The notes beneath the pieces are model-generated. The model was not told where the DNA came from. It did not search any database and worked only from the letters and a program-made list of their open reading frames with translations. Below are positions 6,757-32,913 of a stretch of DNA of 64,000 nt, piece after piece. Position numbers and translations under genes: made by a program. The DNA is from Janthinobacterium sp. J1-1 (GTDB lineage Bacteria > Pseudomonadota > Gammaproteobacteria > Burkholderiales > Burkholderiaceae_D), in contig NZ_CP132339.1 in the NCBI RefSeq assembly GCF_030944405.1, positions 5,890,001 to 5,954,000 on the forward strand, given 5' to 3'. Each line of letters starts with the position of its first letter. Within the stretch, counting starts at the first letter, position 1.

Positions 6757-6757
6757 G

Positions 6758-8435: not shown

Positions 8436-8491
8436 ACTGAGTTCTCCTTGTGTTGTGCGGCATGATCGAAAAAACCACAGCCAAAAAAATA

Positions 8492-8530: not shown

Positions 8531-8581
8531 GTTGTGCTATTCTGATGACTCGTTCAACACATCTCCCTCAAAGGAATTGTC

Positions 8582-8806: not shown

Positions 8807-9156
8807 GAGACTGGCGACAGTCTCCACCCGGCCCCGCCCGCCAGCATACGGTACTGGTCAGCAACATGCTGACCACCCCCTCATTACTGTGCGCTGGACT
8901 GCGCGGCCGGGCTGGCAGGTGTTTTCTGCGCCACAAGCACACCAGCAAAATATATTAAGCCCTCGGTCACCCGCACAGGCACAGGCACAGGCACACCGGG
9001 CCAAGCGGGCCTGAAAAATGTCGAGGGCAAGGCGCAGCGACGAAGACAGTACGCCAGTACGGCGAGGAGCTGCAACGCCGCCATCGGCATTTTCTCAGAC
9101 TCGCGTCTCCGGCCCGCCGTTTTTATGCCTTGCGCTGTCAACTGCATGGCGCATGC
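8807..9156. other. 350-bp intergenic region with hairpins
   Basis: No gene is supported here. Two hairpins follow the SOS gene: 8807-8824 (6-bp stem) and a perfect 7-bp stem at 8856-8874 (GGTCAGC, loop AACAT, GCTGACC), neither with a T-run. A short GGCACA tandem repeat lies at about 8970-8996. The rest is the dispersed-repeat-like element at 9015-9093. A minus-strand frame through the area is judged spurious. Confidence 0.5.
9015..9093. repeat. candidate dispersed intergenic repeat with imperfect inverted ends
   Basis: This 79-bp unit is bounded by AAAATGTCGAGGGC and the inverse of AAAATGCCGATGGC, 12 of 14 positions matching. It contains an internal near-palindrome around TACGCCAGTACGGCGAGG. 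The arrangement looks like a REP/short mobile repeat of beta-proteobacterial intergenic regions. The window has only this copy, so the family is from memory and uncertain. Confidence 0.4.
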
Positions 9157-10224: not shown

Positions 10225-10336
10225 ACCACTCCGTTCTGCCCGGCACGCGCACGTGCCGGATCTGTAGCCATGCGCCAGTTGCGCAGCCGTAGCGTACCAC
10301 GGGCATTATGCTTCCTGCATGGACGACACGAACGCG

Positions 10337-11518
10337 CTACACCAGTCCCAGGTCCACCGGTTTCACGCCCGCAAACACCTGGTTCAGCTGGGCCGCATTC
10401 AGGCCGAAGGTGCGCTGCAGCAAGCCACCGAGCACGGCGCGGTATTCGTTGAGCACCGGCATGTCACGGTTCTGGAACAGGTTCGCCTGCGTGATCGCCA
10501 TTTGTTCACCCACCACCTGCTTGCCCTGGATGCTGCCGCCCAGCACCCAGAACACGCTGCCGTGGCCATGGTCGGTGCCGCGGTTGCCGTTTTCGCGGAA
10601 GGTGCGGCCAAATTCGCTGACCACCACCACCACGGTATGGCGCCAGCTATCGCCCATTTCCTGGGCATAGGCGGCCAGGCCCCGTCCCAGTTCCTCAAAG
10701 CGCCCCGCCAGGTAGCCGCTGACCGCGCCCTGCCCCACATGGGTGTCCCAGCCGCCCACGTCGACAAAGCCGATATTGTATTTATCTTTCATCAGCCGCG
10801 CGATGCGCTGCGCTTCCAGTTCGAAACCCTTGGCGCTGATGGCGTTGCGGTTGGCGCCCGGCATCTCGCCGATCAGGCCCTTGGCCACGTCGTCGCGCAC
10901 CACGAAGCCTTCGCTGACCGGTGCTTGCAAGGCAGTACCCTGGTACATGCTGGCAATAATCTGGCTCTGACGCGCATCGATGCCGGACTTGCCGACCGAG
11001 CGCAGCGCCATGTTCGGCACTTGCAGGCCGCCCTGGAAGATCAGCGGCAACTGGTCGGTAAAGGCGATGGCGCCGCTCGCGTTCAAGGTCTGCGCCAGGC
11101 GGTTCAGAAAGCCGGAACGGAAATCGCGACGTCCTGTCACCTCCTGGCCCAGTTCGATGCTGTCCTGGGTTTCGAAATGGCTGCGCGACAAGTCGGTGGT
11201 GCCGGCAAACGGAATGAAGGCCGCGTCGCCGCTGTTGAACATCGGGTAAATGCTGTCGCGCAAGGCTGGATGCAGGGCCCAGTCGCCATTGAGCGCCAGC
11301 GCGCCGTTGTCCGCACCCGGCTTCGGAATGGCGATATTCGGCCGCGCCGCATAGTAAAAATCGCTGCCGGTCGGCACCAGCAGGTTGTTGGCGTCATAGC
11401 CACCGCGCAGGAACACGAACAGCAGCCTGGCGTCCGTGGCGGGCGCCGCCAGCAGGCTGCCGGCGCTGCCAAACAAAGAGACGGCGGCCAGCGCTTTCAA
11501 CAGATCACGACGGTACAT
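10337..11518 (-). CDS. DUF1501 family protein, Tat-exported
   Basis: This 393-aa protein of the DUF1501 family is related to the alkaline-phosphatase/sulfatase fold. The N-terminus MYRRDLLKALAAVSLFG carries a twin-arginine-like RRDLLK motif followed by a hydrophobic core and LLAAP, so export in folded form is likely. Family hallmarks include LFVFLRGGYDANNLLVP, GWDTHVGQG, VVVVSEFGRTFRENGNRGTDHGHG and FWVLGG. A GGAG ribosome site precedes the ATG. It is 13 bases downstream of its DUF1800 partner. The two families are almost always adjacent, so they probably act on the same periplasmic substrate, which is unknown. Confidence 0.9.
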   Translation of the reverse strand: MYRRDLLKALAAVSLFGSAGSLLAAPATDARLLFVFLRGGYDANNLLVPTGSDFYYAARPNIAIPKPGADNGALALNGDWALHPALRDSIYPMFNSGDAAFIPFAGTTDLSRSHFETQDSIELGQEVTGRRDFRSGFLNRLAQTLNASGAIAFTDQLPLIFQGGLQVPNMALRSVGKSGIDARQSQIIASMYQGTALQAPVSEGFVVRDDVAKGLIGEMPGANRNAISAKGFELEAQRIARLMKDKYNIGFVDVGGWDTHVGQGAVSGYLAGRFEELGRGLAAYAQEMGDSWRHTVVVVVSEFGRTFRENGNRGTDHGHGSVFWVLGGSIQGKQVVGEQMAITQANLFQNRDMPVLNEYRAVLGGLLQRTFGLNAAQLNQVFAGVKPVDLGLV

Positions 11519-11531
11519 GGTGGCTCTCCGG

Positions 11532-13049
11532 TTAGCGGTGCATCATTTCTGGCGATGAGAGCAGGAACGTGTTCCACTCCTGCGGCGTGCCGGCCTGCTG
11601 CAAGGCCAGTCTCGTGGCCGGCCCCAGGGCCGGCTCGATGCTCTGGAAATACACGGCGCTGGCCAGTTGCGGAAAGGCCGGCTTTTCCTGCGGTTGCGGG
11701 TCGTCCGTCCTGAACAGGCCGGCGCTGCCCGAGGCGATCGTGCGGGCAATGTCAAAACGCGTCGTCATTTGCCCCGGGCTGGCCCAGGCACTGTCGATCA
11801 GCGGATAGCCGTCAGGCGTCTGGCGGCCATACAAAGGCTGGCCCATGCGTGACAGCCAGCCCAGCATCGGTCCGGCGTTCAGGATCGGCTTGTCGTCATA
11901 CGACAGGCGCACGGCCGACACCACATAGTGCATCGGGTCCTTGAACTTGCGGCCCAGGGATAGCTTGAACGCCTCGCTGGCAAACAGGGTCTGCAGCACG
12001 CCGGCGATATCGCCATCGGTTTGCCGGAAGGTTTGCGCCATGCCGGCCACCAGTGCTTCGGGCGGCGTGTCGCCGACAAAATACTGGGCCAGCTTGCCAC
12101 TGATAAAGCGCGCCGTGGCCGGGCTGCGGGAGAGTCTGTCCAGCGCTTCATCGAGCTCGGCCAATCCCCTGCCCTTGACGGTCTGCCCGAGAAATTGCTT
12201 GTCGCCATAGTCGTGGCGGTTCGGATTGAACTCGAACAGGCCGCGCCGCACATACTGGGCTTGCAGCGCCGGTTTGACTTTCGGCGTGTCGGTGCCCAGA
12301 TTCACCCCGACGCCGGTCAGGATGCGCGCCAGCTCCTGCACGTCCTTCTGGCTGTAGCCGCCGTTCACGCCCAGGGTATGCAGCTCCATCAGCTCGCGCG
12401 CATAATTTTCATTGATGCGGTTGGCCGCGTTCGCTTCATTGTCCAGGTAGCGCAGCATGGCCGGGTGGTGCACGGTGGCGGCCAGCAGATCGCGGAACTT
12501 GCCCAGCGCATGCGGCGCGATGGCGTTCATTTCATAATCGCCGACCATGGCGCGCAGGTTGTGCTTGCCCTGGTGCACGCTGAAATGATTGAGCCAGAAC
12601 CAGCTCAGTTGCTGCTGCAATTGATTCGGCGAATACACGTCCAGCAACAGCGAACGGGTGGCCGCTTCGCGCGCCAGGCGATTGAGTTCCTGCTGGTAGT
12701 CTTTTTGCGCCTGCTGCTTGGCGGAATCGTCCATCACGGCATAGCCCTCCTTGCGGCGCTGTTCGATCCCCATCACCAGTTGATCCATCGGCGTCTGGCT
12801 GATGGTCATGGCGGCTATCTGCGCTTGTATCACTGGCGGCAACACGGCCTTGCCGGGATGCAGCTGTCCTTGCAGATAACCGTCCCAGCCTTGCTGCCGC
12901 AACTGGCGCACGCTGCCGGCATTGATGCCGCAGCTGACGCGCTGCTGCATGGCCAGCGCCTGTGCCGGGTTGTCCGGCTGGACGGTGGTGCTGGCGCAGC
13001 CGCCCAATAGCACAAAGGCAAGCAAGGTGGTCGGTAGCAGTGGTCGCAT
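11532..13049 (-). CDS. DUF1800 family lipoprotein
   Basis: This 505-aa protein belongs to DUF1800. It has the segments AREAATRSLLLD, WFWLNHFSVHQGK, NANRINENYARELMELHTLGV and FEFNPNRHDYGDKQFLGQ. The N-terminus has a lipobox (LLGGC), so it is anchored in the envelope. The start is set at 13049 rather than 13055 because GAGGA abuts the upstream ATG and is spaced six bases from the second one. It forms an operon with the DUF1501 gene. The function is unknown. Such pairs are often found near extracellular-matrix or cellulose-related loci, but nothing of that kind is nearby. Confidence 0.9.
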   Translation of the reverse strand: MRPLLPTTLLAFVLLGGCASTTVQPDNPAQALAMQQRVSCGINAGSVRQLRQQGWDGYLQGQLHPGKAVLPPVIQAQIAAMTISQTPMDQLVMGIEQRRKEGYAVMDDSAKQQAQKDYQQELNRLAREAATRSLLLDVYSPNQLQQQLSWFWLNHFSVHQGKHNLRAMVGDYEMNAIAPHALGKFRDLLAATVHHPAMLRYLDNEANAANRINENYARELMELHTLGVNGGYSQKDVQELARILTGVGVNLGTDTPKVKPALQAQYVRRGLFEFNPNRHDYGDKQFLGQTVKGRGLAELDEALDRLSRSPATARFISGKLAQYFVGDTPPEALVAGMAQTFRQTDGDIAGVLQTLFASEAFKLSLGRKFKDPMHYVVSAVRLSYDDKPILNAGPMLGWLSRMGQPLYGRQTPDGYPLIDSAWASPGQMTTRFDIARTIASGSAGLFRTDDPQPQEKPAFPQLASAVYFQSIEPALGPATRLALQQAGTPQEWNTFLLSSPEMMHR

Positions 13050-13148
13050 GGCCATTCCTCAAGCGGTGTCATCCGAAGTGGGCAAGCTTACGCCTGTCCC
13101 GTAACCCGCGACATTGCCATTTGCAACGAGTTGTAATGCCGCTTGGGT

Positions 13149-14051
13149 TTACCCCAGCAAGGCGCATTGCTCGCGCAGAAAATCGCGCAGCTGCAGCACC
13201 ACGGGCGTCACTTGCGCGCGGTGCATGCAGACCAGATGCAAGGGTGCGGCCTCGCCGGCCACCTGGGGCAGCAAACGCTGCAAGCGCCCGGCCGCCAGGT
13301 CGCCTGCGACATCTAGACGCGATTTATAGGCGATACCCAGCCCCGCCACCGCCCAGCGGCGCACCAGGTCGGCATCGTCGGCGCTGCGGTTGCCGCTGAC
13401 CTGCACGCTGATTTGTTCGCGCTGCGGCAGGCGGTAAAAGGTCCAGCGGTCGTGCAAGCCGTCTTCCAGCGCAAAGCGCAAGCAATTATGGTGCCGCAAG
13501 TCGTCCAGCGAAGACAGCGGGTCGTGCGCGCGCAGGTACGCGGGCGACGCCACCAGCACGCGGTCATTGGCCGGCGCGACCGGCATGGCGATCAGCGAGG
13601 AATCATCCTGCTCGCCATAGCGGATAGCCACGTCAACCTGCTGGCGCACCATGTCGGCCAGGCGGTCGCTGACGCTGAGTTGATAGTGCAGCTTGGGGTG
13701 GCGCAGCTGGAAGCTGTCGAGCCAGCCCAGCAGCAGATTGCGGCCCAGGTCCGACGGCATGGCAATTTTCAAGGTTCCGCCGAAACTGTCCTTGCCCGCC
13801 GCCAGCGCGTCGCTGCCCGCGCGCAGCAGCCGCAGCGCTTCGCGCGCGTGTTCCAGGTATTGCGTGCCTTCGGCCGTCAGGCTCAGCGAACGCGTGGTGC
13901 GCACGAACAGGCGCAAGCCCAGTTCCCCTTCCAGGCGCTTGACGGCGGCGCTGGCCAGGGCCGGCGAAATGCCGATCTCGCGCGCGGCCGCCGACAAGCT
14001 GCCGCGGTCGGCCGTGCGCACAAATACCTGCAGATCATCGAGGCGCAGCAA
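13149..14051 (-). CDS. LysR-family transcriptional regulator
   Basis: This 300-aa regulator has an N-terminal winged helix-turn-helix (LDDLQVFVRTADRGSLSAAAREIGISPALASAAVKRLE) and a periplasmic-binding-like effector domain from about residue 90. The frame opens with a TTG preceded by AAAGGA at ten bases. No in-frame ATG is close. It is divergent from the quinone oxidoreductase gene across about 100 bases, so that gene is its probable target. The effector is unknown. Confidence 0.88.
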   Translation of the reverse strand: MLRLDDLQVFVRTADRGSLSAAAREIGISPALASAAVKRLEGELGLRLFVRTTRSLSLTAEGTQYLEHAREALRLLRAGSDALAAGKDSFGGTLKIAMPSDLGRNLLLGWLDSFQLRHPKLHYQLSVSDRLADMVRQQVDVAIRYGEQDDSSLIAMPVAPANDRVLVASPAYLRAHDPLSSLDDLRHHNCLRFALEDGLHDRWTFYRLPQREQISVQVSGNRSADDADLVRRWAVAGLGIAYKSRLDVAGDLAAGRLQRLLPQVAGEAAPLHLVCMHRAQVTPVVLQLRDFLREQCALLG

Positions 14052-14150: not shown

Positions 14151-15164
14151 ATGAAAGCCATCGCCTACCACCACAGCCTGCCCATCACCGACGCCAAGGC
14201 CCTGCTCGATATCGAACTGCCGACGCCTGTCGCCACCGGGCGCGACCTGCTGGTGGCCGTGCACGCCGTGTCCGTCAATCCGGTCGACACCAAGATCCGC
14301 AAGAACCGCCAGCCGAAAGACGGCCAGCCGGAAGTGCTGGGCTGGGACGCCACCGGCGTGGTCACCGCCACCGGCCCCGAGGTGAGCCTGTTCCAGGTCG
14401 GCGACAAGGTCTGGTACGCGGGCGCCATCAACCGCCCCGGCAGCAACAGCGAGTTCCATCTGGTCGACGAGCGCATCGTCGGCCATATGCCGGCCAGCCT
14501 CGACTTCGCCCCGGCCGCCGCCCTGCCGCTGACCGCCATCACCGCCTGGGAATTGCTGTTCGAACGCCTGCAGCTCAGCCGTGACACCAGCAGCACCGGC
14601 AAATCGCTGCTGGTGATCGGCGCGGCCGGCGGCGTCGGCTCCATCCTGGTGCAACTGGCGCGCCAGCTGACGGGCGTGACCATTATCGGCACGGCCTCGC
14701 GCCAGGAAACAGCCGACTGGGTAAAGGAACTGGGCGCCCACCATGTGATCGATCACAGCCAGCCACTGGCTCTTGAAATCACCCGCCTGGGCTTGCCGCC
14801 GGTTGACTATGTGATCAGCCTGAACCAGACCGACAAGCATTTCGAGCAGATCGTCGAACTGATCGCGCCGCAGGGCAAGTTCGCCCTGATCGACGACCCC
14901 GAGCAGATCGACGTGCGCAAACTCAAGGCGAAAAGCGTGTCGCTGCACTGGGAACTGATGTTTACCCGTTCGCTGTTCCAGACCGAGGACATGGTCAAGC
15001 AGCATGAACTGCTGGAAGAGCTGGCGCAGCTGGTGGACGCCGGCACCATCCGGACCACGGTGGCGGAACGCTTCGGCAAGATCGACGCGGCCAACCTGAA
15101 GCGCGCGCATGCTGTGCTGGAAAGCAATACCGCGCGCGGCAAGATCGTGCTGGAAGGTTTTTAA
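14151..15164 (+). CDS. zinc-type alcohol dehydrogenase-like / NADPH:quinone oxidoreductase
   Basis: This 337-aa medium-chain dehydrogenase/reductase has a GroES-like N-terminal half and a Rossmann domain with GAAGGVG at about 157-163, the NADPH-type variant. The segments NPVDTKIRKN and EVLGWDATGVV match the ZADH/quinone oxidoreductase branch. The cysteines of the structural zinc lobe of true alcohol dehydrogenases are absent, so a zinc-independent quinone or enone reductase is more likely. AAGGA precedes the ATG by six bases. It is divergent from a LysR regulator, which suggests induction by an electrophile or quinone. Confidence 0.87.
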   Translation: MKAIAYHHSLPITDAKALLDIELPTPVATGRDLLVAVHAVSVNPVDTKIRKNRQPKDGQPEVLGWDATGVVTATGPEVSLFQVGDKVWYAGAINRPGSNSEFHLVDERIVGHMPASLDFAPAAALPLTAITAWELLFERLQLSRDTSSTGKSLLVIGAAGGVGSILVQLARQLTGVTIIGTASRQETADWVKELGAHHVIDHSQPLALEITRLGLPPVDYVISLNQTDKHFEQIVELIAPQGKFALIDDPEQIDVRKLKAKSVSLHWELMFTRSLFQTEDMVKQHELLEELAQLVDAGTIRTTVAERFGKIDAANLKRAHAVLESNTARGKIVLEGF

Positions 15165-15172
15165 GCGGCCAG

Positions 15173-15200
15173 GCAGCCGGCCGCCTATTTGGCCGGCTGC
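15173..15200. terminator. bidirectional hairpin between convergent genes
   Basis: A perfect 10-bp stem (GCAGCCGGCC / GGCCGGCTGC) with an 8-base loop lies between the stop of the oxidoreductase and the stop of the convergent secreted protein, covering the latter's last codons. There is no strong T-run, so termination efficiency is uncertain. Confidence 0.55.
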
Positions 15201-15889
15201 TTCGCGTAAATACCCCTGCCCAGGCCATTGTCGGTGTCGCTCACCTGCAGTCCGCCGTCGACCACGCGCAAGGTCAGTTTCTGGAACGGCTGCTTCAGCA
15301 GCCACTGGCGGTCGGTGACGGCAAACGCGGCGATGCGTTCGCTCGCACGCCCGGGGGGCACCACCAGCCACTGGTAGTCGGCCTTGGAACCTTCCAGGCG
15401 CAGTCCGGCCCGCACCCATTGCTCCGACGCCGGCATCTTGACGATGGCGTCGCCATTCTGCAAGCTGACGGCGGTGGCCGTCTTGCCGCTCTTTGCTTCG
15501 AATTTCACTTCCACGCCGGCCATCGGCCCCAGCTGTGGAAAGCCGACGATGGCGACCCACTGCCCTGCCGCAGCCGGTTTGCGGATCCGCATTTCGTCTT
15601 CGTCAAACACGCGAAACTGCGGCGCCTTGCCGGGACTGGCCGCGTGCAGGGTCACGTCCTTGCCGGACACGCTCCAGTCGCCGCTGGCCTGCTGGTCGAC
15701 ATTGCCGTAGGCCAGCATCCATTCGAACTTGCCATCTTTTTTCAGCAGCAATTCAGAGCCGACTTCCGTCACGCCCTGCAGATAATAATGCCCGGGCAGC
15801 GAGGATGCCGCCTGGTCGGCGGCGATGACAGAAACGGACCAGCTCAACAGGCCGGCGCAAGCCAGCACGGAAAACAGCGATTTTTTCAT
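15185..15889 (-). CDS. secreted protein of unknown function
   Basis: This 234-aa product has a signal peptide (MKKSLFSVLACAGLLSWSVSVIAA). It then has beta-rich segments: GHYYLQGVTEVGSELLLKKDGKFEWMLAYGNVDQQASGDWSV, typical of a lipocalin-like or copper-resistance NlpE-like first strand pair, and a middle domain with FEAKSGKTATAVSLQNGD. I cannot name a family with confidence. AAGGACA lies five bases before the ATG, which supports this start over an 18-codon longer frame. The gene is convergent with the oxidoreductase and has its own promoter region. Confidence 0.75.
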   Translation of the reverse strand: MKKSLFSVLACAGLLSWSVSVIAADQAASSLPGHYYLQGVTEVGSELLLKKDGKFEWMLAYGNVDQQASGDWSVSGKDVTLHAASPGKAPQFRVFDEDEMRIRKPAAAGQWVAIVGFPQLGPMAGVEVKFEAKSGKTATAVSLQNGDAIVKMPASEQWVRAGLRLEGSKADYQWLVVPPGRASERIAAFAVTDRQWLLKQPFQKLTLRVVDGGLQVSDTDNGLGRGIYAKQPAK

Positions 15890-15961
15890 GGGATGTCCTT
15901 TTTGATATGCCATCATAGCAACTTGATTTAGTTGCAAGCACACAATAGAACTACGCCACGA

Positions 15962-17239
15962 TCACTCTCCTGCAGCCGTGATCAGGATGGCGCGGAAATC
16001 GTTCACATTGGTCAGGGTGGGGCCGGTGACCACGCTGTCGCCCAGCGCCTGGAAAAAGCCGTGGCCGTCATTATTGTCGAGGCTGTCGCGCGGGCGCATG
16101 CCCTGCGCCCAGGCGCGCCGCAAGGTATCGGGCGCCAGGTACGCACCGGCGATGTCTTCCTGGCCATCGACGCCGTCGGTGTCGCCGGCCAGCGCATGCA
16201 CCTTGGCTTCGCCGTCAAGCGCGATGCCCAGCGACAGCAGGAATTCCACATTGCGCCCACCGCGTCCATTGCCGCGCACGGTGACGGTGGTCTCGCCGCC
16301 CGACAGCAACACGCACGGCGTGGCGAACGGCTGGCCGCGCCGCGCCGCCTGCTGGGCGATGCCGGCCATCACCTTGCCGACATCGCGCGCCTCGCCTTCC
16401 AGGCTGTCGCCGAGAATATACGGCGTGACGCCGGCCGCGCGCGCCACCGCGGCCGCCGCCTCCAGGGCCATTTGCGGCGTGGCGATCAGTTCGATGCTTG
16501 AGTTTGCCAGGCGCGGATCGCCGGGTTTGACAGATTCGCCGCGCCCGCTTTCCAGGGCCTCGCGTATGCTGGCCGGCAAGGCGATGCCATAGCGGCGCAC
16601 GATATCGAGCGCGTCCTGGCAGCTGGTGGCGTCGGCCACCGTCGGGCCGGAGGCGATATCACCGGGCTTGTCGCCCGGCACGTCGGAAATCGCCAGGGTC
16701 AGCACCCGCGCCGGATGGCAGGCGGCGGCCAGCCTGCCGCCCTTGATGGCGGACAAGTGGCGCCGCACGCAATTCATCTCGCCGATGGTGGCGCCGGAAG
16801 CGAGCAAGGCGCGGTTCAGGTCCTGTTTGTCGGCCAGGGTGATACCGGCCAATGGCAAGGCCAGCAGCGACGAACCACCGCCGGAAATCAGGCACAGCAC
16901 GGTGTCATCTACGGTCAGATTGCCGGCCAGCGCCAGCATGCGCTGCGCGGCCTGCATGCCGGCCGCGTCCGGCACCGGATGCGAGGCTTCGACGATCTCG
17001 ATCCGTGCGCAGGGCACGCCATAGCCATAGCGCGTGACCACCAGGCCGGACAATTCACCGGGCCAGTGTTGCTCCACGGCTTGCGCCATGGCGGCCGAGG
17101 CCTTGCCGGCGCCGATCACGATCAGGCGGCCTGTCGGTGCGGCCGGCAAATGCGGCGCCACGCAGTGCGACGGCTGGGCGGCGGCGACGGCGGCGTCGAA
17201 CATGGCGCGCAGCAGGTCGCGCGGGGATGGTTGGGGCAT
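15962..17239 (-). CDS. ttuD: glycerate 2-kinase (GckA/TtuD, MOFRL family)
   Basis: This enzyme phosphorylates D-glycerate to 2-phosphoglycerate in the tartronate/glyoxylate route and was historically called hydroxypyruvate reductase. The 425-aa product shows VIGAGKASAAMAQAVE, the SGGGSSLLALP loop, EMNCVRRHLSAIKGGRLA and the C-terminal MOFRL domain with LSGGETTVTVRGNGRGGRN and DTDGVDG. GAGGAG lies seven bases before the ATG. It is divergent from a CdaR-type activator, in line with sugar-acid or glycerate induction. Confidence 0.92.
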   Translation of the reverse strand: MPQPSPRDLLRAMFDAAVAAAQPSHCVAPHLPAAPTGRLIVIGAGKASAAMAQAVEQHWPGELSGLVVTRYGYGVPCARIEIVEASHPVPDAAGMQAAQRMLALAGNLTVDDTVLCLISGGGSSLLALPLAGITLADKQDLNRALLASGATIGEMNCVRRHLSAIKGGRLAAACHPARVLTLAISDVPGDKPGDIASGPTVADATSCQDALDIVRRYGIALPASIREALESGRGESVKPGDPRLANSSIELIATPQMALEAAAAVARAAGVTPYILGDSLEGEARDVGKVMAGIAQQAARRGQPFATPCVLLSGGETTVTVRGNGRGGRNVEFLLSLGIALDGEAKVHALAGDTDGVDGQEDIAGAYLAPDTLRRAWAQGMRPRDSLDNNDGHGFFQALGDSVVTGPTLTNVNDFRAILITAAGE

Positions 17240-22886: not shown

Positions 22887-23397
22887 ACGCCAGCGGCTGC
22901 AGTCCCGCCTGGCGGTCGTCGGGCGCCACCACCGCCAGCAAGGCCGCCAGCCCGCTGTTCAGCTGCGCCAGGCTAGCCGCATCGAGCCGGCCCAGCGCAC
23001 TGGGCAGCAAGCCGCGCGCCGGCTGTGGCGCAGCGGCGATCACGGCCTGGCCGGTGTCGGTCAGGTGCAGGGTGACCACCCGTTGATCGGGCTGGTCGCG
23101 CGCCTTGCGCAGATGCGTTTTTTTCACCAGCGCATCGACCAGGTTGCTGGCCGTGGTCTGGTGGATCGACATTTTCACCGCCAGTTCGCCGATGCGCAGG
23201 CCTGGCTGGTCGTACACTTCCTGCATTACCCACAATTGCGCGCCCGACACGCCACATTGCTTTTCGATCTGCATCGAATGGCGCTGCGCCGCGCGCATCA
23301 CCACGCGCAGGCTTTGCAGCGCCAGGCTGCGCGCCTTGTCCGCGTCATCCACTCCAGCCACCGCTTGCGCGGATGTATTGTCTTGCGTCACAGCCAT
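22876..23397 (-). CDS. MarR-family transcriptional regulator
   Basis: This regulator of about 173 aa has a winged helix-turn-helix core (LWVMQEVYDQPGLRIGELAVKMSIHQTTASNLVDALVKKTHL) and the wing RKARDQPDQRVVTLHLTDTG. AGGAG abuts the ATG at 23397 but sits six bases before an in-frame GTG at 23391, so the true start may be two codons later. The gene stands alone, and the target and ligand are unknown. It overlaps the end of the convergent ClC gene. Confidence 0.88.
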   Translation of the reverse strand: MAVTQDNTSAQAVAGVDDADKARSLALQSLRVVMRAAQRHSMQIEKQCGVSGAQLWVMQEVYDQPGLRIGELAVKMSIHQTTASNLVDALVKKTHLRKARDQPDQRVVTLHLTDTGQAVIAAAPQPARGLLPSALGRLDAASLAQLNSGLAALLAVVAPDDRQAGLQPLAFTM

Positions 23398-23498
23398 CTC
23401 CTGATAGTGTGCCGGCCCTGATCGCCGCACGCCGACATGATACCTGTATCGGCATGGCGGCAGCCAACGCATTGGCAGACACATCAGGAATCAGACGA

Positions 23499-24227
23499 TC
23501 AGGATTTTTGCACCGGATAGCGGCTCAACAGCTCTTGGAAGCGCTTGTCCTTGCGCAGCGTATCCAGATCGCGGTCTTGCGCCATTTGGTCAAAATAGCT
23601 GAAGCCATCGTTGAAGCTGCGTTCGAACTCAGCCAGCGCGTCCTCCGTGCGGTTCTGCTTCAGGCGCAGTATCGCCATGTTGTAGGACACCAGTACATTT
23701 TTCTGATCGCGCAAGCGCGCCTCACCGAGCTCTTTTTCGGCCTCATCCAGCTTGCCTTGCGCCATTTTCGAAATCGCCGCTTTCAGCATTTCATTGGCTG
23801 CGGCCTTGCTGCTGGCCGCCTCGGCACCCGCCGCATCACCACTGGCCAGCTTCTGGTCGCCTTCGATACGCAAAGCCTTGGTTTTCTGGTCATCGGGCGC
23901 CAGCACAGCGCTCTTGCCCTGTTCGACCACCGTTTGCGCAGCCTCGATGAGCGCGGGGGCCGCTTCGGCAATCACTGTTGCCGCAGCGATGGGACGCGTC
24001 AGGTACCAGTAACCACCGGCACCGGCTCCCAGCACCAGCACGCCGGCGATGGCCGCTACCAGCACTTTTTTATTGCCGCCACCAGAGCCACCCGAAGTGC
24101 CAGCCTGCAATTCCAGCAGCGTTGCGCATTGCGGGCATTTCAAATCATCACCGGGCGAGCGCTCGAACACCTCTCCAGAATTGGCCTTGTCGCAATCACC
24201 GAGCGTCGGGCATTTGTATTTTGCCAT
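23499..24227 (-). CDS. zinc-ribbon / single-span / TPR-like protein of the tubulin cluster
   Basis: This 242-aa protein has three parts. An N-terminal zinc ribbon has cysteines 6, 12, 31 and 34 (CPTLGDC and CPQC). A glycine-rich linker leads to a membrane helix at about 54-74. The C-terminal helical region (about 110-235) looks like TPR units (NVLVSYNMAILRLKQNRTEDALAEFERSF). Zinc ribbon inside and TPR outside is the natural topology. It is the last gene of the five-gene cluster, 78 bases after the tubulin-like gene. A scaffold or adaptor role is inferred. I know no characterised homologue. Confidence 0.75.
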   Translation of the reverse strand: MAKYKCPTLGDCDKANSGEVFERSPGDDLKCPQCATLLELQAGTSGGSGGGNKKVLVAAIAGVLVLGAGAGGYWYLTRPIAAATVIAEAAPALIEAAQTVVEQGKSAVLAPDDQKTKALRIEGDQKLASGDAAGAEAASSKAAANEMLKAAISKMAQGKLDEAEKELGEARLRDQKNVLVSYNMAILRLKQNRTEDALAEFERSFNDGFSYFDQMAQDRDLDTLRKDKRFQELLSRYPVQKS

Positions 24228-24258
24228 TTTCTTACCTTTTATTGTTGTGGGACCGGTA

Positions 24259-24277
24259 CGCCAGCATCACGCTGGCG
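24259..24277. other. hairpin between tubulin-like and zinc-ribbon genes
   Basis: A perfect 7-bp stem (CGCCAGC / GCTGGCG) with a 5-base loop sits in the 78-bp spacer. It has no T-run on the transcribed strand, so it may modulate stability or translation rather than terminate. Confidence 0.5.
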
Positions 24278-24305
24278 CACCATGATTGATCGTTACCCGG
24301 TTCGC

Positions 24306-27290
24306 TTACGGCATGCGTATCAGCGTGCGCAGTGGATCGCGCAGCGAACGCAGTGCCAGGAACTGCGGATCCTGGTCATCCTGGCCGGCCGCCTCGAAAC
24401 ACTGGTTTGCCAGCTCGGTGTATTGCCTGAACAGCGACGTCTTCTGGTCGATATGCTGGTATTCCGCGTCGATCTTGCGCGCCACTTCCTTTTCGATGGC
24501 TTTCTGCAGGTCGATCGGATGCTCGGTTTCCAGCACATCCTGCAAGCTCTTGCCGGACAGGACCTTGGACGATGGCATGCCATCCTCCATTGCAATGAAC
24601 ACCCACTCGGGCAAGCCGGACTGGCGATTCGTGCGCTGTTTGATCATCTGCAGCAAGTTCGCCAGCAGCAAGGTCGGCTTGCGCATGCCGCGCGCCTGGG
24701 TTTCCGTTGCCGTACGTGCAAACAGCGGTGGCAGCTTCTTGCCATCGCCTTCGCCATGCAACAGATACGATTCGTTATGATCAGCCATCAGACCATCGTA
24801 ATGACGCTTGAGATAAGTCAGCGATTCCGTGTAGCGGAGCGGCATCAGTGCGGTGACCTTCATGATCACGATCTGGTTCGGCATCTGGCCTACGCTGATG
24901 GTAGTCGCCGAGGCGGAGTCGCGCTGCGACCTGAACTCGCTTTCCAGGTCCGCCCGGAATGCTTTCTGGTGTTCGCACGCAGGCAGGAAGACCCCCACGG
25001 TTTCATACACGCCGGGACTGGCACCGCCAACCGTGCGGTCGACTTCGGTCTTGTTGAAGACCAGCGTACTGCCAGCTTCATCGTACAGACTTTGGACGAA
25101 TTGCTTGAGGCCACTCTTATTGGCGTCATACTGCTTCTGCAGGCGCTCGACGATATTGACATGCAACACAGGTGGCAGGTTCTTGGCGATCTCGCCGTGC
25201 GCCAGTTCCACGATGCGCGCCGACTCCTGCGACAGCGTGGAAATGATGCTGCCCAGCGAAATATGGCGATTGAGTTTCTCGAAAGAATCGACCTCGACAC
25301 CGGCCAGGTTGATCAGGGACTGGCGTACGCGCTGCGTGCGCGCGGCCTGGCTGATTTCATCGCTGATCATCGCCTTCAGAATGGCGCTGATCGCGCCCAT
25401 GTCAAAGATGCGTTTCTGATACGCGGCATCGGCCGCGCCCAGGCGCGCCGCCTGTTCCTGGTTGAACTGATCGGTGGCCACCGCCAGGTTCTGGTGCAGT
25501 TCGTCAATCTTGCCGCGCAAGGTCAGCAACTGCTCTTTCACGAAAGGCAGCAAGCTCGTGGCAAAACGCATGCCTTCGAGCGCGGTGCGGGCAATGTACA
25601 GGTCCTGATGCTGGGTAGCGATATCGGCAAACAGCCCTCCTCGCTTGTCCGTCAGGTGCTTGCCCAAAAAGCCGACTTTGTTAAACTGCACCGACAGCTC
25701 CGTATTGCGCTGCTGAATGCCCTGCATGACGCTTGGCATCTTGGCAATGCGTTCCAGGAAGAGGTCCTGCTTTTCGTCCAGCGCCAGCACCAGTGCATCC
25801 GTGTAATGGCGCAACTGCAACAGGGAAGCAGTACCGGATTTCCACCGCCCGAACAATTCTTTTTCGATATGCCGGCCGATATGGCGTGCCATGTCCAGAC
25901 GTGCATTGCCTTTCACTTCATAAAACTTGCGTACCCCGCCCATGGTTCGATAGGTATCATCGAATACCTTGGCCAGGCGCGTGTTGAGCGCATCGATCCA
26001 GCCGGTCTCTTCGATCACTTTGTCGGCCTTGATTTCAGGCGCCAGGCGACTGACGATCTGCTTCCAGTATTCCTGCGGCGGTTTCCAGTTGCTGTTCTTG
26101 ATATCGTCGTCCAGTATGCCGGTGTCGAGCGTCAGATGCGCATCGGTCAACAGCAGGCTTTGCAGCACTTCGGGCTTGCGTACCTCGGAACCCCAGTCCT
26201 TTTCCACCGCTTCATCGGCATAGCCCTCGCCCTGGCGGAAATTGTTGAACATCAGTTGGCGGCTGGCCTGCTCGGCAAAACCGTAGGCGAGAAATTCCTT
26301 GATTTCCTGCTCCGGCACGACCACCCGCTTGATGCCGAACGACAGGAACAGCTTGGCGCGCGCCTTGCCGACGTCCTCCTCGGTCTCGAAATTGATGATG
26401 TCGTTTTCGCCCTTCTCGGCACGGTTCAGGCCTTCCCAGGCCTTGTTCAGGGTCTTCTGGTAAATGAATTCGGCCACGATGGTCGGCAGCTCGGACTCCA
26501 CCTCGAACTGGATACCATGTTCGTTGACATTGTTGATCAGGTAGCAGCCATTGAAATACACATCGTGCGCCATCGGCACGCCATCGAGCAGATTGATCGG
26601 ATGATACTTGCCGACCGCCATGGCGTTGAGTTCGGCCAGCGCGGCATAGCCGTTGGCATAATAGTTGGAGAACCCAGCCACATCCTTGACGCGCTTCGAA
26701 TTTTTCTCGGGCAGGAAAGCGTAAATCAGGATGCGATATTTATCGTGCTCCGGCAACTGGTGTCTGATCTGTGCTACCGCATCGACGACGGAGCCACTGC
26801 CGGTGCCGCCAGCCAGGCCGCAGACGACGTGGATGGTGACGCCGGTCTTGCCCTGCGCTTGCAGGTCATGCACACGCTCCTCGATCGCCTTGACGAACTT
26901 CGGTGCATTTTGCGCGAAGACCATGCGTCCCAGCTTGCGCCGCTGCGCCGCACCGGCGATACCGGGCTTGACGAAATCGAAGATCGCACGCGGCTCGATC
27001 CAGCCTTTCATGCCGGGGAACGAACCGGGATCGTCGAGCACCGGGCGGATATTGCTGGCGGTATTGATGGCCACCTGGCCGCGATCGAGTTCGATATCCT
27101 TGCCCAGCACCTTCCACTCATCGCGCTTGTCTAGCTCGTCGCTGGAGGTGTCGATATAAAGAAAATCGAAACGCGCATCGGACACGCTGACGCCATCGGC
27201 GTCCTTGTTGCGTTCGATGGTTTTCTTGATCTGGCGAATGATCTTGCCGCCCGTACCGCCGAGACCGACGATCAGATGATTATTTGACAT
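24306..27290 (-). CDS. tubulin/FtsZ-like GTPase (Tubulin_2 family)
   Basis: The 994-aa protein has a tubulin-superfamily N-terminus. VGLGGTGGK at 8-16 is the first nucleotide loop. A T4-like signature GLAGGTGSGSVVDAVAQI lies at 158-175, equal to the FtsZ/tubulin GGGTG[TS]G motif and followed by the usual helix. YAFLPEKNSKRVKDVAGFSNYYANGYAAL matches the region after it. The remaining two thirds is a long, mostly helical extension unique to the large Tubulin_2/FtsZ-like-1 proteins. It should bind GTP and may polymerise or dock at membranes. It is neither FtsZ nor TubZ. It lies between a DUF4384-like exported protein and a zinc-ribbon membrane protein in a single-strand cluster. Confidence 0.82.
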   Translation of the reverse strand: MSNNHLIVGLGGTGGKIIRQIKKTIERNKDADGVSVSDARFDFLYIDTSSDELDKRDEWKVLGKDIELDRGQVAINTASNIRPVLDDPGSFPGMKGWIEPRAIFDFVKPGIAGAAQRRKLGRMVFAQNAPKFVKAIEERVHDLQAQGKTGVTIHVVCGLAGGTGSGSVVDAVAQIRHQLPEHDKYRILIYAFLPEKNSKRVKDVAGFSNYYANGYAALAELNAMAVGKYHPINLLDGVPMAHDVYFNGCYLINNVNEHGIQFEVESELPTIVAEFIYQKTLNKAWEGLNRAEKGENDIINFETEEDVGKARAKLFLSFGIKRVVVPEQEIKEFLAYGFAEQASRQLMFNNFRQGEGYADEAVEKDWGSEVRKPEVLQSLLLTDAHLTLDTGILDDDIKNSNWKPPQEYWKQIVSRLAPEIKADKVIEETGWIDALNTRLAKVFDDTYRTMGGVRKFYEVKGNARLDMARHIGRHIEKELFGRWKSGTASLLQLRHYTDALVLALDEKQDLFLERIAKMPSVMQGIQQRNTELSVQFNKVGFLGKHLTDKRGGLFADIATQHQDLYIARTALEGMRFATSLLPFVKEQLLTLRGKIDELHQNLAVATDQFNQEQAARLGAADAAYQKRIFDMGAISAILKAMISDEISQAARTQRVRQSLINLAGVEVDSFEKLNRHISLGSIISTLSQESARIVELAHGEIAKNLPPVLHVNIVERLQKQYDANKSGLKQFVQSLYDEAGSTLVFNKTEVDRTVGGASPGVYETVGVFLPACEHQKAFRADLESEFRSQRDSASATTISVGQMPNQIVIMKVTALMPLRYTESLTYLKRHYDGLMADHNESYLLHGEGDGKKLPPLFARTATETQARGMRKPTLLLANLLQMIKQRTNRQSGLPEWVFIAMEDGMPSSKVLSGKSLQDVLETEHPIDLQKAIEKEVARKIDAEYQHIDQKTSLFRQYTELANQCFEAAGQDDQDPQFLALRSLRDPLRTLIRMP

Positions 27291-27317
27291 GGGATTCTAT
27301 GGAATAGGTAATCGAAG

Positions 27318-28241
27318 TTATTGATGCGACAGCTGAAGCTTCAAGTACAGCCCGTCTTCCTTGCTGGTCAGGTTCTTCACGATATAGGCCGCCACATGGC
27401 CACCGGTATCGGGTTGGACATCTTCGCTGAAGACGATCGCTTTCGAAGCATAGCCCTGGCCGCTTGCCGGCACTGCGGCGCACTCGCTGTCCTGGGCAAA
27501 CACGATGCTCTTGGCGCTGTAGCCGGCATCGGCCAGACGCGGCTGCGACTCATCGACGGTTTTCCATTCGGTGGCGGTAACGGCAGGCTGCGGGCAGGCA
27601 GGGCCGGAAGGATTGCTCACGCCGCCGCTGCTGGCCACCAGGTCGGGCTGCATGCCGTCGATCTTCGCCGTGGCAGCAACCTCGAGCGGCTTGGCCGACA
27701 GATACACCAGCAATTGCTCGGTGCCCGGCGGCCCTTCGAATTCAAAGGCGCCGCGCGCTGGCAAGAACACCGTGCCCATGGCGTCGATGAAATTATCCTT
27801 GCCTGGCTGCGGATAAATCTGCGTCACCTTGCCATCCGGCGCCTGGTTCAACACATAGACGTAGGACGGACGATTGACCTTGACGCCCAACTGGAATTTA
27901 TCTCCGGTCGAAAATTTGCGGCTGGCCAGCACATCGCGCGTCGTACCGTCGATATTCTTGATACGGATAAAGTAACTGGTGCCGATCTGCGCCGCAGGTT
28001 TGGCTTTCGCTGCCGAGGCAACCACAGTCTTCTTGACGGCGGCTTTCTTCTTTGCCGTCTGCACCGGTTCGGCCGGTGCCGGGACCGCAGCCGGCGCCGG
28101 GACCGGGGCCGGCGTGCCCGTATTGGCCGTCGAGACGGCGCCGTCTTCGGCGAAAAACAGCGACTTGGCGCTATAGCCCTCCTGGGCCGAAACACCGCTC
28201 ATCAACAGCGCGAGGGAGAGTGCAATGATGGTTCTTTGCAT
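27318..28241 (-). CDS. exported DUF4384-like protein with repeated K-centred motif
   Basis: This 307-aa protein has a signal peptide (MQRTIIALSLALLMSGVSAQ). A Pro/Ala/Lys-rich linker (about 42-80) follows. Next is a DUF4384-type beta domain (about 87-200) with FQLGVKVNRPSYVYVLNQAPDGKVTQIYPQPG and PGTEQLLVYLSAKPL. A motif occurs three times: GYSAKSLFFAED (22-33, right after the signal peptide), GYSAKSIVFAQD (240-251) and GYASKAIVFSED (263-274). The caspase-like neighbour has one copy. Caspase and DUF4384 domains are often linked. Here they are separate genes 49 bases apart. The motif could be a cleavage or docking site. Confidence 0.78.
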   Translation of the reverse strand: MQRTIIALSLALLMSGVSAQEGYSAKSLFFAEDGAVSTANTGTPAPVPAPAAVPAPAEPVQTAKKKAAVKKTVVASAAKAKPAAQIGTSYFIRIKNIDGTTRDVLASRKFSTGDKFQLGVKVNRPSYVYVLNQAPDGKVTQIYPQPGKDNFIDAMGTVFLPARGAFEFEGPPGTEQLLVYLSAKPLEVAATAKIDGMQPDLVASSGGVSNPSGPACPQPAVTATEWKTVDESQPRLADAGYSAKSIVFAQDSECAAVPASGQGYASKAIVFSEDVQPDTGGHVAAYIVKNLTSKEDGLYLKLQLSHQ

Positions 28242-28290
28242 GATTTGCTTTCCAGGGATGGGCGGGCCGCTCCAGGCGGACCGCTGGGGT

Positions 28291-29637
28291 TCACAGATAC
28301 AAATTGTCCTGCTTGACGGGGAAGGTGCTGTACTTGCGTGGCACCTGCTGTTTTTCGCCATCAGTAAGCACAGTGGCCTTGGCGGAGGTAAACTCGCGGG
28401 CCCGCTCGAAAGCCGGCTCGATCTCGCCTTGGCTTTGTTCCAGATAAGCAAAGAAAGCCTGCGTGAAGAACGATCCCCTGAGTTTTTGAGAAGGCGCGAC
28501 CGGGCTGTCGAACACGCCGACATCATGTTTCGGCCCCAGTGCCTCCTGCCCTTCGCTGGTAGCGGTGATCACGGTATAGCCGCTGCGGCTGCGGTCGAGT
28601 TTCTGCGGCACGCCCTGGCGTTTCGCCTTGTCGCTGGCGGCCACTTCCTCGGGGCTGAAGACAATTGCCTTGGAGGTAAATTTTTCACCACTCCAGGCTG
28701 CCATCGAAATGCCTTCGCTTTCGGGTCGGCCATTGTTGGCTTTCAGAATGAAGGCGGTCGATTCATCCTTGATGTCGTTCAGCATCTCGCCGCTGTAACA
28801 GGTGTCGATGAAGACGCGCGTTTCGCGGCTGGACTTTTGTGCCAGTTGCTGTACCAGGGTGTCGGACACCGAGGTTTCCTGCAGATGCAGCAAGTAATCC
28901 GTCTTTCCACGCTTGCGGCCATCGACACTGCCTGAATCGACGGCAATAATGGACATGCGTCGCTGATCGATACCGGCCGGCGACGGAACGGGCGGCGTGC
29001 CGTGGCTCGATACATAGATGAACAGGCTGTCATTGGCGCGCAGGCTATCGCCCACTTCGGCGATCTTCGATTCGATATTGGCCTTGGTGGCTTGCTCGCC
29101 GAACAACGACGTTACCTGGTACCCGGCGCGGCGCAGGCGCTCGGCAACGACTTTCGCATCATCTTCGCCCTGAATCGGCTTCAGGCTGGCGCTGTCGCGG
29201 AAAGTATTGATGCCGACCACCAGTGCACGCTTCTGCGGCACCGTCAGCACCGCCAGCTTGCGTGCACTACGTTGCTTGAAGAAATCGTCGCTGGCCTGCC
29301 GCGCGTCGATTTCCCAGCGCTTGACCTTGATATTTTCCGGATAGATCGGCGAGGTCGATTTCAAGCCGACGATGGATTGGGCAATGATGAACGCCCGCTC
29401 GACTTGCTGTTCATCGTCGTAATTGCCAGCCAAGCGTACCCGGCCAACGCCATCGCGCACCACCGACGCTTGCGTCAATCCATGCTGCTTGAATTTGACC
29501 GCAATTTTCTGCAGCAATTCGGGCGGAATATCGTATGAATAATAAACATGCTGATAGCCCGGCAATTGATTGGCGGCACAACCGCTGAGCAACAACACCG
29601 CGAGGACCATCAGGCCGCGCCAGATCGATTTCATCAT
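28291..29637 (-). CDS. caspase-like (peptidase C14) lipoprotein
   Basis: The 448-aa protein has a lipobox (LLLSGC, Cys20). A BON-like domain follows at about 40-110 (SVVRDGVGRVRLAGNYDDEQ). The caspase-fold domain runs from about 130, with RALVVGINTFRDSASLKPIQG. The catalytic pair is His212 (YVSSHGTP) and Cys280 (FIDTCYSGEM). C-terminal to it, EKFTSKAIVFSPEEV (Lys323) repeats the motif found three times in the next gene's product. As a lipoprotein it would act in the periplasm or at the cell surface. Bacterial orthocaspases usually cut after Lys or Arg, so Lys in the motif is notable. ATG codons at 29637 and 29634 are both possible. Confidence 0.85.
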   Translation of the reverse strand: MMKSIWRGLMVLAVLLLSGCAANQLPGYQHVYYSYDIPPELLQKIAVKFKQHGLTQASVVRDGVGRVRLAGNYDDEQQVERAFIIAQSIVGLKSTSPIYPENIKVKRWEIDARQASDDFFKQRSARKLAVLTVPQKRALVVGINTFRDSASLKPIQGEDDAKVVAERLRRAGYQVTSLFGEQATKANIESKIAEVGDSLRANDSLFIYVSSHGTPPVPSPAGIDQRRMSIIAVDSGSVDGRKRGKTDYLLHLQETSVSDTLVQQLAQKSSRETRVFIDTCYSGEMLNDIKDESTAFILKANNGRPESEGISMAAWSGEKFTSKAIVFSPEEVAASDKAKRQGVPQKLDRSRSGYTVITATSEGQEALGPKHDVGVFDSPVAPSQKLRGSFFTQAFFAYLEQSQGEIEPAFERAREFTSAKATVLTDGEKQQVPRKYSTFPVKQDNLYL

Positions 29638-29726
29638 GAAAGTGACTTGAAGAGAGAAATGAACATGGCACACCGGCCACCGCGTCATTTACGGTTCCGG
29701 GCGCCACCGATAACATCGAGTTTTTT

Positions 29727-30470
29727 TCAGATAATTGAGACGGTTTTGGTTGCAGCCACCACCGCAGTGGTTGCGGTTTTGATCTGAATTTCGTAGCGCA
29801 GCTGCATGCCAGGCTTGAAATTCGAGCTCAATTCATAATTCACCGTGTCGGTATGCTGCGCCGGTTCAAACGTCTTGGTTTCCGACGGACTGCCGGCAGT
29901 AAATGGCATGAGTTCTTCCTTACCATCTTCGATAACGTAGACTTTCCGTACGATTTCTACCTGCATTTCAGCATCATCCGGCGTCAACACATTAAACACC
30001 GTATTCATGGGAATACTCGCGGTGCCGCTTTTGACCGACTCGGGCATGTCGATCTTGACGATGCCGGTCACGATGCCCTGGCTCGGCTTGTATTTGGCGT
30101 CTTTCTTTGCCTGCGCCAGCGTGGCGGAGCGGGTGATATTGGAAGCAGGAACCCAGCTCGGATTCTTCTTGTAGCAGATATTGGTAGCCTCGTAATAAGC
30201 TTTGACGAAACCGATGCCGCCGCCGGCGACCGCACCGAGTGCCGTGGCCTTGATTGCGTCTTTTTTCTTCATGCCGCCAAGGAAGGAGGCCCCCAAACCT
30301 GCCAGCGCACCGACTGCGGCGCCCTTGGCCGTTGCCGTCAATTGCTCCGACTGTACGCATGAATTCAGGTCGGCATATGCCGATTCCTGCGCGGACGCAT
30401 TCGCCGACAGGAGTGCGAGGGCGCATACCATCGCAGCGTTGAGTTTTGACGATGAGAAAATCAGATTCAT
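29727..30470 (-). CDS. exported glycine-zipper protein
   Basis: The 247-aa product has a signal peptide (start MNLIFSSSKLNAAM, cleavage after NASA). A glycine-zipper hairpin lies at about 48-90 (AKGAAVGALAGLGASFLGG and ALGAVAGGGIGF), a pattern of outer-membrane inserting or oligomerising proteins. A C-terminal beta domain follows, at about 140-245 (TASIPMNTVFNVLTPDDAEMQVEIVRKVYVIEDG). An alternative ATG at 30485 gives five extra residues. It is the first gene of the five-gene cluster, 89 bases before the caspase gene. A cell-surface or pore-like role is inferred. I found no named family. Confidence 0.72.
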   Translation of the reverse strand: MNLIFSSSKLNAAMVCALALLSANASAQESAYADLNSCVQSEQLTATAKGAAVGALAGLGASFLGGMKKKDAIKATALGAVAGGGIGFVKAYYEATNICYKKNPSWVPASNITRSATLAQAKKDAKYKPSQGIVTGIVKIDMPESVKSGTASIPMNTVFNVLTPDDAEMQVEIVRKVYVIEDGKEELMPFTAGSPSETKTFEPAQHTDTVNYELSSNFKPGMQLRYEIQIKTATTAVVAATKTVSII

Positions 30471-31074
30471 GATTGTAGATTTCATTTCAAGTAAAAAGAC
30501 GGGATGGATTTTTCTTGGCCCCGGCAATACAACCGCGGCCCCGCATGAATACTGGCTTGACAGGTAACTCATCAGCGATAGCACGACATTTTTTGAAAAA
30601 CAATCAAGTGACCAACCCTCGATTGCGGCGATAAATCATCACCGACAATCGGCAGAAAAAATCCCACCATTGAAGATAATCAGAACTCGTGTTTCCATGC
30701 GGAATCATTGTAGCTCAATTTCAAATCAATGGAAATATACTTAAACGCCAATTAATAATTATTGACAATAAATTATTTTTTATGAATGAAATAAATTTTA
30801 TTACCTTGATAATTCAATCGAACTTGTTACTATTGAATAGAATTCAATGAGTGAATTTAATGTAGGAAGATGATGCGGATCGCGGCGGACGGAAAACCAG
30901 GAAGTTTCCCTGTCATGGCAGAAGGCATGCGGGACGATGAAGCGCGGGAGCAAAAGAATATCCGACGACGCGGATGGCAGAACAGGCCGACACGATGATG
31001 CCCGCGCCGCAGGGCTGCGGCACGAGGAGATGGCAGGTGGCGCCGACGGTGAATGCCGACGCCAGAAAGAAAAC
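30471..31074. other. AT-rich intergenic region upstream of the tubulin/caspase cluster
   Basis: This is the largest gene-free stretch in the core part. About 30600-30860 is markedly AT-rich. On the minus strand TACAAT (30707-30712), with TTTCCA 17 bases upstream, could start transcription of the cluster. An inverted repeat ATTGAA/TTCAAT lies at 30832-30848. From 30860 to 31074 the base composition is normal but no supported ORF exists. Confidence 0.45.

Positions 31075-32913
<1,839 letters not shown>

Follow-up and report, generated by a model that had tools for sequence, protein, structure and literature searches.

What might a very large tubulin-like GTPase do when its gene is carried beside that of an exported caspase? 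The question is raised by a 64,000-nucleotide stretch of the Janthinobacterium sp. J1-1 genome (contig NZ_CP132339.1, positions 5,890,001 to 5,954,000; hereafter the window), in which five open reading frames (ORFs) lie on the minus strand from window position 30470 to 23499, as located in an original prediction made from the sequence alone. To our knowledge, the roles of large FtsZ-like (Tubulin_2) proteins have not been established, nor has it been settled what most caspase homologues of bacteria cleave in nature. Two of the five products, a caspase-fold lipoprotein (CASP) and the DUF4384 protein encoded next to it, share a short and nearly invariant lysine motif, which suggests a candidate substrate for this caspase. 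The features on which the argument turns are as follows, with lengths in amino acids (aa).

28291-29637, minus strand: CASP, a caspase-fold lipoprotein of 448 aa from its likely start; the ORF reaches 29688 (465 aa)
29002-29004, minus strand: catalytic His of CASP (H212 of 448, H229 of 465), present in 120 of 120 listed homologues
28798-28800, minus strand: catalytic Cys of CASP (C280 of 448, C297 of 465), within IDTCYSG, present in 120 of 120 listed homologues
28657-28680, minus strand: Lys motif FTSKAIVF in the p20-p10 linker of CASP, with the Lys codon at 28671-28669 (K323 of 448, K340 of 465)
27318-28241, minus strand: DUF4384 protein, 307 aa, with a signal peptide, a disordered N-terminal tail, the DUF4384 domain and a C-terminal tail holding two motifs
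28152-28175, minus strand: Lys motif site 1 of the DUF4384 protein, YSAKSLFF (K26), immediately after the signal peptide
27498-27521, minus strand: Lys motif site 2, YSAKSIVF (K244), flanked by invariant Cys216 and Cys254
27429-27452, minus strand: Lys motif site 3, YASKAIVF (K267), in a low-confidence predicted strand

The motif, which was first seen on reading the translations and of which the original prediction made no mention, has the consensus [YF]-[TSA]-[SA]-K-[GAS]-[IL]-x-F-x-x-D and is found at three sites of the DUF4384 protein and at one site of the caspase, within its p20-p10 linker. Conservation was followed in homologue lists that hold the best 120 of 240, 283 and 1072 matches, each drawn from about 8000 scored candidates; entry P0121 is the window's own caspase and is excluded from homologue counts, which leaves 119. 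The motif Lys is present in all 120 listed homologues at each of the three DUF4384 sites and in 118 of the 119 listed caspases from elsewhere (119 of 120 with the window member), and a G, A or S occupies P1' in 118 of 119 caspases and, at each DUF4384 site, in 120 of 120 proteins. Searching the whole 6.95-Mb genome with a degenerate DNA pattern, built from the four sites themselves and narrow at P3', returned five matches, namely these four and one elsewhere, and the reversed control returned three. Because P3' of the caspase motif is mostly R or H, the strict expression matches only 16 of the 120 listed caspases. A position-specific scoring matrix (PSSM) was built from 327 DUF4384 sites in 109 proteins, with the 11 nearest relatives and the window excluded. 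It gave the window's caspase linker a score of 21.2, which none of 3000 shuffles of that caspase reached (maximum 17.0), and the next-best score among 191 window ORFs, the DUF4384 protein apart, was 4.6. The best PSSM match is a Lys-bearing site in 119 of 120 listed caspases and starts at residues 290-345 in 117 of 120; some of these scores are low, the worst being -4.5 with the Lys in place and -13 for P0196, from which the Lys is absent. A chance origin of the motif was rejected on the genome pattern counts and the PSSM shuffles, and a recent duplication of its DNA on the differing codons of the four sites.

A general occurrence of the motif in DUF4384 proteins was likewise rejected, none having been found in a check of 30 loci that is valid for correctly read loci only; four of these loci lacked the central ORF and many were read on the wrong strand, including the J1-1 genome's own locus L076, where the motif exists. 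The DUF4384 domain itself was detected in 17 genomes of the 100-genome phylum sample that supplied these loci, at E 0.001 (own genome included), 14 of them above the family cut-off. Three stand-alone DUF4384 proteins (L101, L102 and L103) carry [ST]RG[IL] near the C-terminus; these strings and the related RGI strings hint at an Arg version of the Lys motif and may have arisen by chance. At L102 (7828-10867) the stand-alone protein, with SRGI, adjoins a caspase that has RGI strings and, by eye, a formylglycine-type C-terminal region, and at L101 (5101-8839) the DUF4384 protein lies downstream of a lipoprotein that, also by eye, has TPR repeats and a CHAT-like C-terminus, a further DUF4384 neighbour from the caspase clan.

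Predicted structures place most copies of the motif in flexible regions. In the caspase model (mean predicted local distance difference test score, pLDDT, of 76.9) the linker at residues 289-347 falls under 50 and is predicted to be disordered, and K323 lies 43 residues past Cys280. The DUF4384 model has a mean pLDDT of 65.6, with residues 16-76 and 217-259, which cover sites 1 and 2, under 50. Cys216 and Cys254 of this protein are invariant in 61 sequences and may form a disulfide that brackets site 2. These 61 sequences are 60 of the 120 listed DUF4384 proteins with the window protein added; the corresponding caspase set, used for the structure model, has 67 sequences, 66 of them from the list of 120. 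The best structural matches of the caspase model are MALT1 and plant metacaspase 4; MALT1 cleaves after Arg. Two acidic residues, D160 and D278, are present in all 120 listed caspases, and S210, two residues ahead of the catalytic His, is invariant in 67 of 67 and corresponds to AtMC4 Ser84. Asp95 and Asp211 are given as the S1 residues of TbMC2 in sections of one account (PMC6426788), and D160, through a Metacaspase-1 alignment, and D278, through its position before the Cys, are probably their equivalents; D278 also corresponds to AtMC4 Asp137. A counterpart of the AtMC4 p10 residue Asp352 was not located in the caspase. In AtMC4, linker Lys225 occupies the S1 pocket and is self-cleaved, according to sections of a further account (PMC7206013). 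By its sequence the caspase of the window has a complete pocket for a basic P1 residue, and cleavage after Arg or Lys is predicted.

Together, the shared motif, the metacaspase/paracaspase-like fold and the invariant acidic S1 pocket suggest a self-activating, Lys-specific protease whose neighbour is its substrate, and we incline, if only slightly, to the view that the cassette encodes an accessory, envelope-spanning proteolytic module built on this pair. The caspase would be exported as a lipoprotein and kept as a zymogen by its p20-p10 linker until a trigger leads it to cut itself after K323 (YTSK, then G/A-I). The activated enzyme would then turn to the DUF4384 protein and cut behind its motif copies, at K26, K244 and K267. 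These cuts would trim the N-terminal tail and alter the protein by releasing two parts of it: a 23-residue peptide, which a C216-C254 disulfide may still tether, and the 40 residues at the C-terminus.

The three remaining products of the cassette enter this scheme through topology and gene order.

29727-30470, minus strand: GZ, 247 aa, exported, with a signal peptide and a glycine-rich hydrophobic segment
24306-27290, minus strand: TUB2, a predicted GTPase of the Tubulin_2 (FtsZl1) type, 994 aa, with a GGTGSG loop
23499-24227, minus strand: ZnRTPR, 242 aa, with an N-terminal Cys-rich ribbon, one transmembrane segment and a C-terminal TPR region

Transcription would run from GZ through CASP, the DUF4384 protein and TUB2 to ZnRTPR, with gaps from stop to next ATG of 89, 49, 27 and 78 bp, so that the five genes on one strand with gaps of 27-89 bp described in the original prediction are borne out by the ORF coordinates and the sequence. 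We took the ATG at 29637, which precedes the lipobox, as the start of CASP in place of the ORF start at 29688; signal peptides, the lipobox and the transmembrane stretch were assigned by eye. Pfam recognised Tubulin_2 (PF13809) in TUB2 at E=2.1e-56 (192 bits, cut-off 27), Peptidase_C14 in CASP at E=2.7e-17, DUF4384 (PF14326) at E=5.2e-17 (62 bits, cut-off 27) and TPR_19 in ZnRTPR at E=2.3e-5. These matches, together with a His/Cys pair that is invariant in all 120 aligned caspases of the list, agree with the caspase-like lipoprotein, the exported DUF4384-like protein and the 994-residue Tubulin_2 protein with its GGTGSG loop that had been proposed. The conservation of the GTP-binding loop, which the original prediction had put up for checking, holds in all 120 listed Tubulin_2 homologues as GGTG[SGT]G, and GLGG[TS]G occurs close to the N-terminus in 109 of the 120. 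For the proposed glycine-zipper protein, export and the glycine-rich character stand, and no profile passes its curated cut-off (TrbC 26 bits against 27.9; YiaD glycine-zipper 19.1 against 175; Gly-zipper_YMGG, in one homologue, 25 against 28.9). The zinc-ribbon/TPR membrane protein keeps its TPR assignment and its transmembrane segment, and the ribbon is based on conserved Cys pairs in the alignment, with no family match. A possible BON domain, on which the original prediction is silent, appears in 11 of 67 members of the caspase family (best E 0.0017), the window member not being among the matches shown. Sequence searches of solved structures found no match with the DUF4384 protein and nothing better than E 0.3 with the Tubulin_2 protein.

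TUB2 and ZnRTPR would be the sole parts with a cytoplasmic side and may be the natural place for a signal to enter. The cytoplasmic GTPase could then gate the caspase by way of the ribbon-transmembrane-TPR protein, and a cytoplasmic GTPase linked through an adaptor with one transmembrane segment to an exported caspase lipoprotein would fit the topologies assigned by eye. The glycine-rich GZ may act as a membrane or envelope effector, a guess that, like the gating step, follows topology and gene order; the pore or coat role once proposed for it is not supported.

The five genes are inherited as a unit and are missing as a block, the outcome that the original prediction had looked for as support. 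The same order is kept in nine of nine loci with a close TUB2, the window included, the other eight (L038, L039, L040, L041, L051, L053, L057 and L058) having TUB2 identities of 55-92% by BLASTP; beside the window, eleven loci with a TUB2 relative (L038-L043, L051-L053, L057 and L058) and a distant-paralogue locus, L044, were read. The nine loci span three GTDB families (genome labels f1, f49 and f31), L038 is on a megaplasmid of Paraburkholderia sp. PREW-6R, and TUB2 of L058 is split into two ORFs. Six of the nine have a sixth gene after ZnRTPR, lipoprotein-like with a TPR-like end, which has no Pfam match and goes unmentioned in the original prediction. In L057 this sixth gene is just a 136-aa ORF, and the loci where no copy was found are the three of Janthinobacterium. 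Contig sizes in the three homologue lists, an indirect sign of linkage, coincide exactly for 26 TUB2-caspase, 25 TUB2-DUF4384 and 28 caspase-DUF4384 pairs and for eight records in all three (120 records each), and a jittered control gave a mean of 0.4-0.5 per pair of lists. In all 28 caspase-DUF4384 pairs the caspase bears the motif in a loose form, and its DUF4384 counterpart has two or more copies.

In the window the cassette stands between an ABC transporter gene (33015-31075), presumably MsbA, and a MarR-type gene (23484-22876). We searched 36 congeneric genomes for the transporter gene and took the stretch past it from ten that lack the cassette. In nine of the ten the MarR and CLC genes are in place with none of the five genes between, seven of these nine sites having a MORN-repeat gene between the flanks, and the tenth stretch (L063) matched no probe. 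In L060, with a transporter gene 92% identical to that of the window, homology ends at window position 31099 and restarts at 23336, with 65 bp between.

23337-31098, no strand: block without homology in the close relative G1351 (L060), which lacks the cassette; it reaches into the final codons of the ABC transporter ORF on one side and into the 5' end of the MarR ORF on the other

Among the Janthinobacterium carriers, three in number, the site of the cassette is the same, so that an old presence with losses and a single gain in one sublineage both fit. An AT-rich segment upstream of GZ (30590-30860), within the block absent from relatives, may hold a promoter. Scans for promoters and terminators showed nothing clear (7 promoter-like sites against 4.2 expected, 15 terminator-like sites against 9.0), and the single Rfam match at the gathering threshold is one tRNA. 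Transposase genes adjoin the cassette at L057 (14513-15862) and L058 (744-1715), and in the genus of G274 a similar gene follows it at L041 (14066-15481) and L053 (13922-15334), encoding an M64 peptidase by Pfam in L041 and by eye in L053.

The cassette is rare and patchy, and its occurrence is sporadic. The genome searches scored the top few candidates per genome, in samples that overlap between searches. TUB2 at 71% identity or more was found in four of 294 genomes of the family (G000, G230, G262 and G274), and 20 further matching genomes of that sample have the distant paralogue only. Counting divergent copies and fragments, TUB2 matches came from three of 399 genomes in the order (the J1-1 genome, a divergent copy and a fragment), four of 250 in family f49 (a close copy, two that are divergent and a fragment), two of 62 in the genus of G274, one of 60 and one of 58 in two further genera, and two of 299 in a phylum sample (own and G550). 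The caspase query matched only the J1-1 genome itself among the 399 of the order, and a scan of genome contigs with a single protein found two loci, where an alignment query would have reached further. Two other loci keep less of the set: L052 (TUB2 34%) has a short ZnRTPR-like protein and a GGDEF/EAL gene upstream, with no caspase or DUF4384 match, and L043 has a TUB2 fragment without the other cassette genes. A second, longer Tubulin_2-like protein of 1230 aa is encoded in the J1-1 genome (L044 9011-12703; C1, about 1204510-1208202), and frames of 1233-1252 aa gave weak matches to the TUB2 search in 23 genomes of the genus, so this longer protein looks like the common form there. A divergent arrangement, L042 in G550 (TUB2 33%; 2543-13763), comprises an OmpA-like gene, DUF4384, TUB2, ZnRTPR, a second Cys-rich protein, a caspase-DUF4384 fusion and a CHAT lipoprotein, and on its opposite strand (14284-16284) lies a lipoprotein whose C-terminus is weakly caspase-like.

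How far the motif can be read as a cleavage site depends on what else could have conserved it. The main rival reading is that of a docking or donor strand: the DUF4384 domain, taken as Ig-like, would bind its own C-terminal YxxKx[IL]xF strand, and that strand could be replaced by another copy, either from the following subunit at its mature N-terminus or from the linker of the caspase, giving a polymer or a clamp on the linker. Several observations are on the side of docking. Site 3 is predicted as a strand of low confidence adjoining two C-terminal strands, the DUF4384 model has weak structural matches with Ig-like folds such as RhoGDI and filamin (best E 7.7e-3, with no match below 0.001), the K, I and F of the motif alternate as if on one face of a strand, and site 1 stands at the mature N-terminus. 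In G550, moreover, both proteins have the motif behind their DUF4384 domain (FAGKDLVF in the DUF4384 protein, FASKDLVA in the caspase tail), so that the caspase copy lies outside the linker. The Lys-Asp common to the two is one instance of co-variation, which points to a partner that they share and does not point to cleavage. We nevertheless consider docking somewhat unlikely: sites 1 and 2 and the caspase copy fall in stretches predicted to be disordered, the S1 pocket of the caspase is acidic, and an unvarying Lys with a small residue behind it is atypical of a donor strand and usual in a protease site. Simple descent of an ordinary gene neighbourhood, with the motif kept for some other reason common to both proteins, for instance as a signal for export or anchoring, would account for both motif-bearing proteins being predicted to be exported. 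It appears very improbable, because the order is kept in differing genomic settings across three GTDB families, four of the five genome pattern matches fall in the caspase and DUF4384 genes, only these two products score highly among the window ORFs, and GZ, likewise exported, is free of the motif.

A further rival concerns the output of the system and is compatible with either reading of the motif. In an abortive-infection or lysis device, the GTPase would sense phage infection and the caspase would execute damage to the envelope, for which the sporadic, block-wise presence, a caspase effector and a membrane-prone glycine-rich protein all speak; caspases are also part of several known defence systems. 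We judge such a device unlikely. Those defence caspases of which we know are cytoplasmic, whereas that of the cassette is exported, and PADLOC returned a generic caspase model (PDLC02987, E 5.4e-8) with PglX (0.071) and Cas3d (0.029), which we took as noise. The co-occurrence with phage-defence genes anticipated by the original prediction did not emerge: no defence system was seen among ten flanking proteins at six loci, a subset of the flanking ORFs, which are metabolic, insertion-sequence, VgrG and other proteins, and the weak PADLOC matches in the flanks are ComEC-type and pyridoxal-phosphate (PLP) decarboxylase proteins by Pfam. No phage or viral home was seen: a single phage record matched weakly, with 35% coverage and 22.5% identity, and in viral contigs 34 stretches matched a pattern, none of them a relative.

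Returning to the proteolytic module, its parts resemble several known systems and combine them differently. Like FtsZl1/Tubulin_2 systems, as described by Makarova and Koonin in 2010 (PMC2875224), the cassette joins a large FtsZ-like GTPase with a GGTGSG loop to membrane or exported partners, and the OmpA-like gene of the G550 locus, identified by eye, recalls the OmpA found in some FtsZl1 operons. Those operons mostly contain vWA genes and often kinase and P-loop GTPase genes, whereas the partners here are the caspase lipoprotein and the DUF4384, glycine-rich and ribbon-TPR proteins; a caspase partner is not mentioned in section 6 or part 1 of section 3 of that account (PMC2875224). Pfam found no vWA, kinase or P-loop GTPase, which are typical and non-defining FtsZl1 partners, in the five genes or the extra TM2 gene. 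With the C14B metacaspases, paracaspases and orthocaspases, and AtMC4 in particular, the caspase shares the fold, the His-Cys dyad, the acidic S1 Asp pair and the linker Lys, and it differs in being an envelope lipoprotein, in a possible N-terminal BON-like part and in a DUF4384 partner that bears the motif in trans. An association of caspases with DUF4384 is reported in sections of three papers, and in the cyanobacterial orthocaspases, as far as the sections concerned describe them (PMC7475262, PMC8283722), DUF4384 is fused to the caspase in one polypeptide. Here the caspase and DUF4384 are linked as well, as separate proteins whose operon includes a tubulin-like gene, and they are fused again in the divergent G550 locus. 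Literature searches, whose scope mostly did not extend to subscription papers, found no description of this gene set.

With the same invariant motif in a protease linker and in a neighbouring protein, the cassette points to a candidate substrate, to exact candidate bonds and to a candidate regulator, and the questions of what Tubulin_2 proteins do and what bacterial caspases cleave become directly testable. It is even conceivable that the enzyme with the caspase fold works as a transpeptidase on the Lys motif and so joins copies of the DUF4384 protein into a polymer of the envelope. In its fullest form, which we hold as a tentative and rather doubtful proposal, a tubulin-family GTPase would control a metacaspase-like zymogen of the envelope across the inner membrane, with the maturation site of the enzyme copied three times in a dedicated substrate. 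If this is true, the cassette would constitute a cytoskeleton-gated proteolytic switch in the periplasm.

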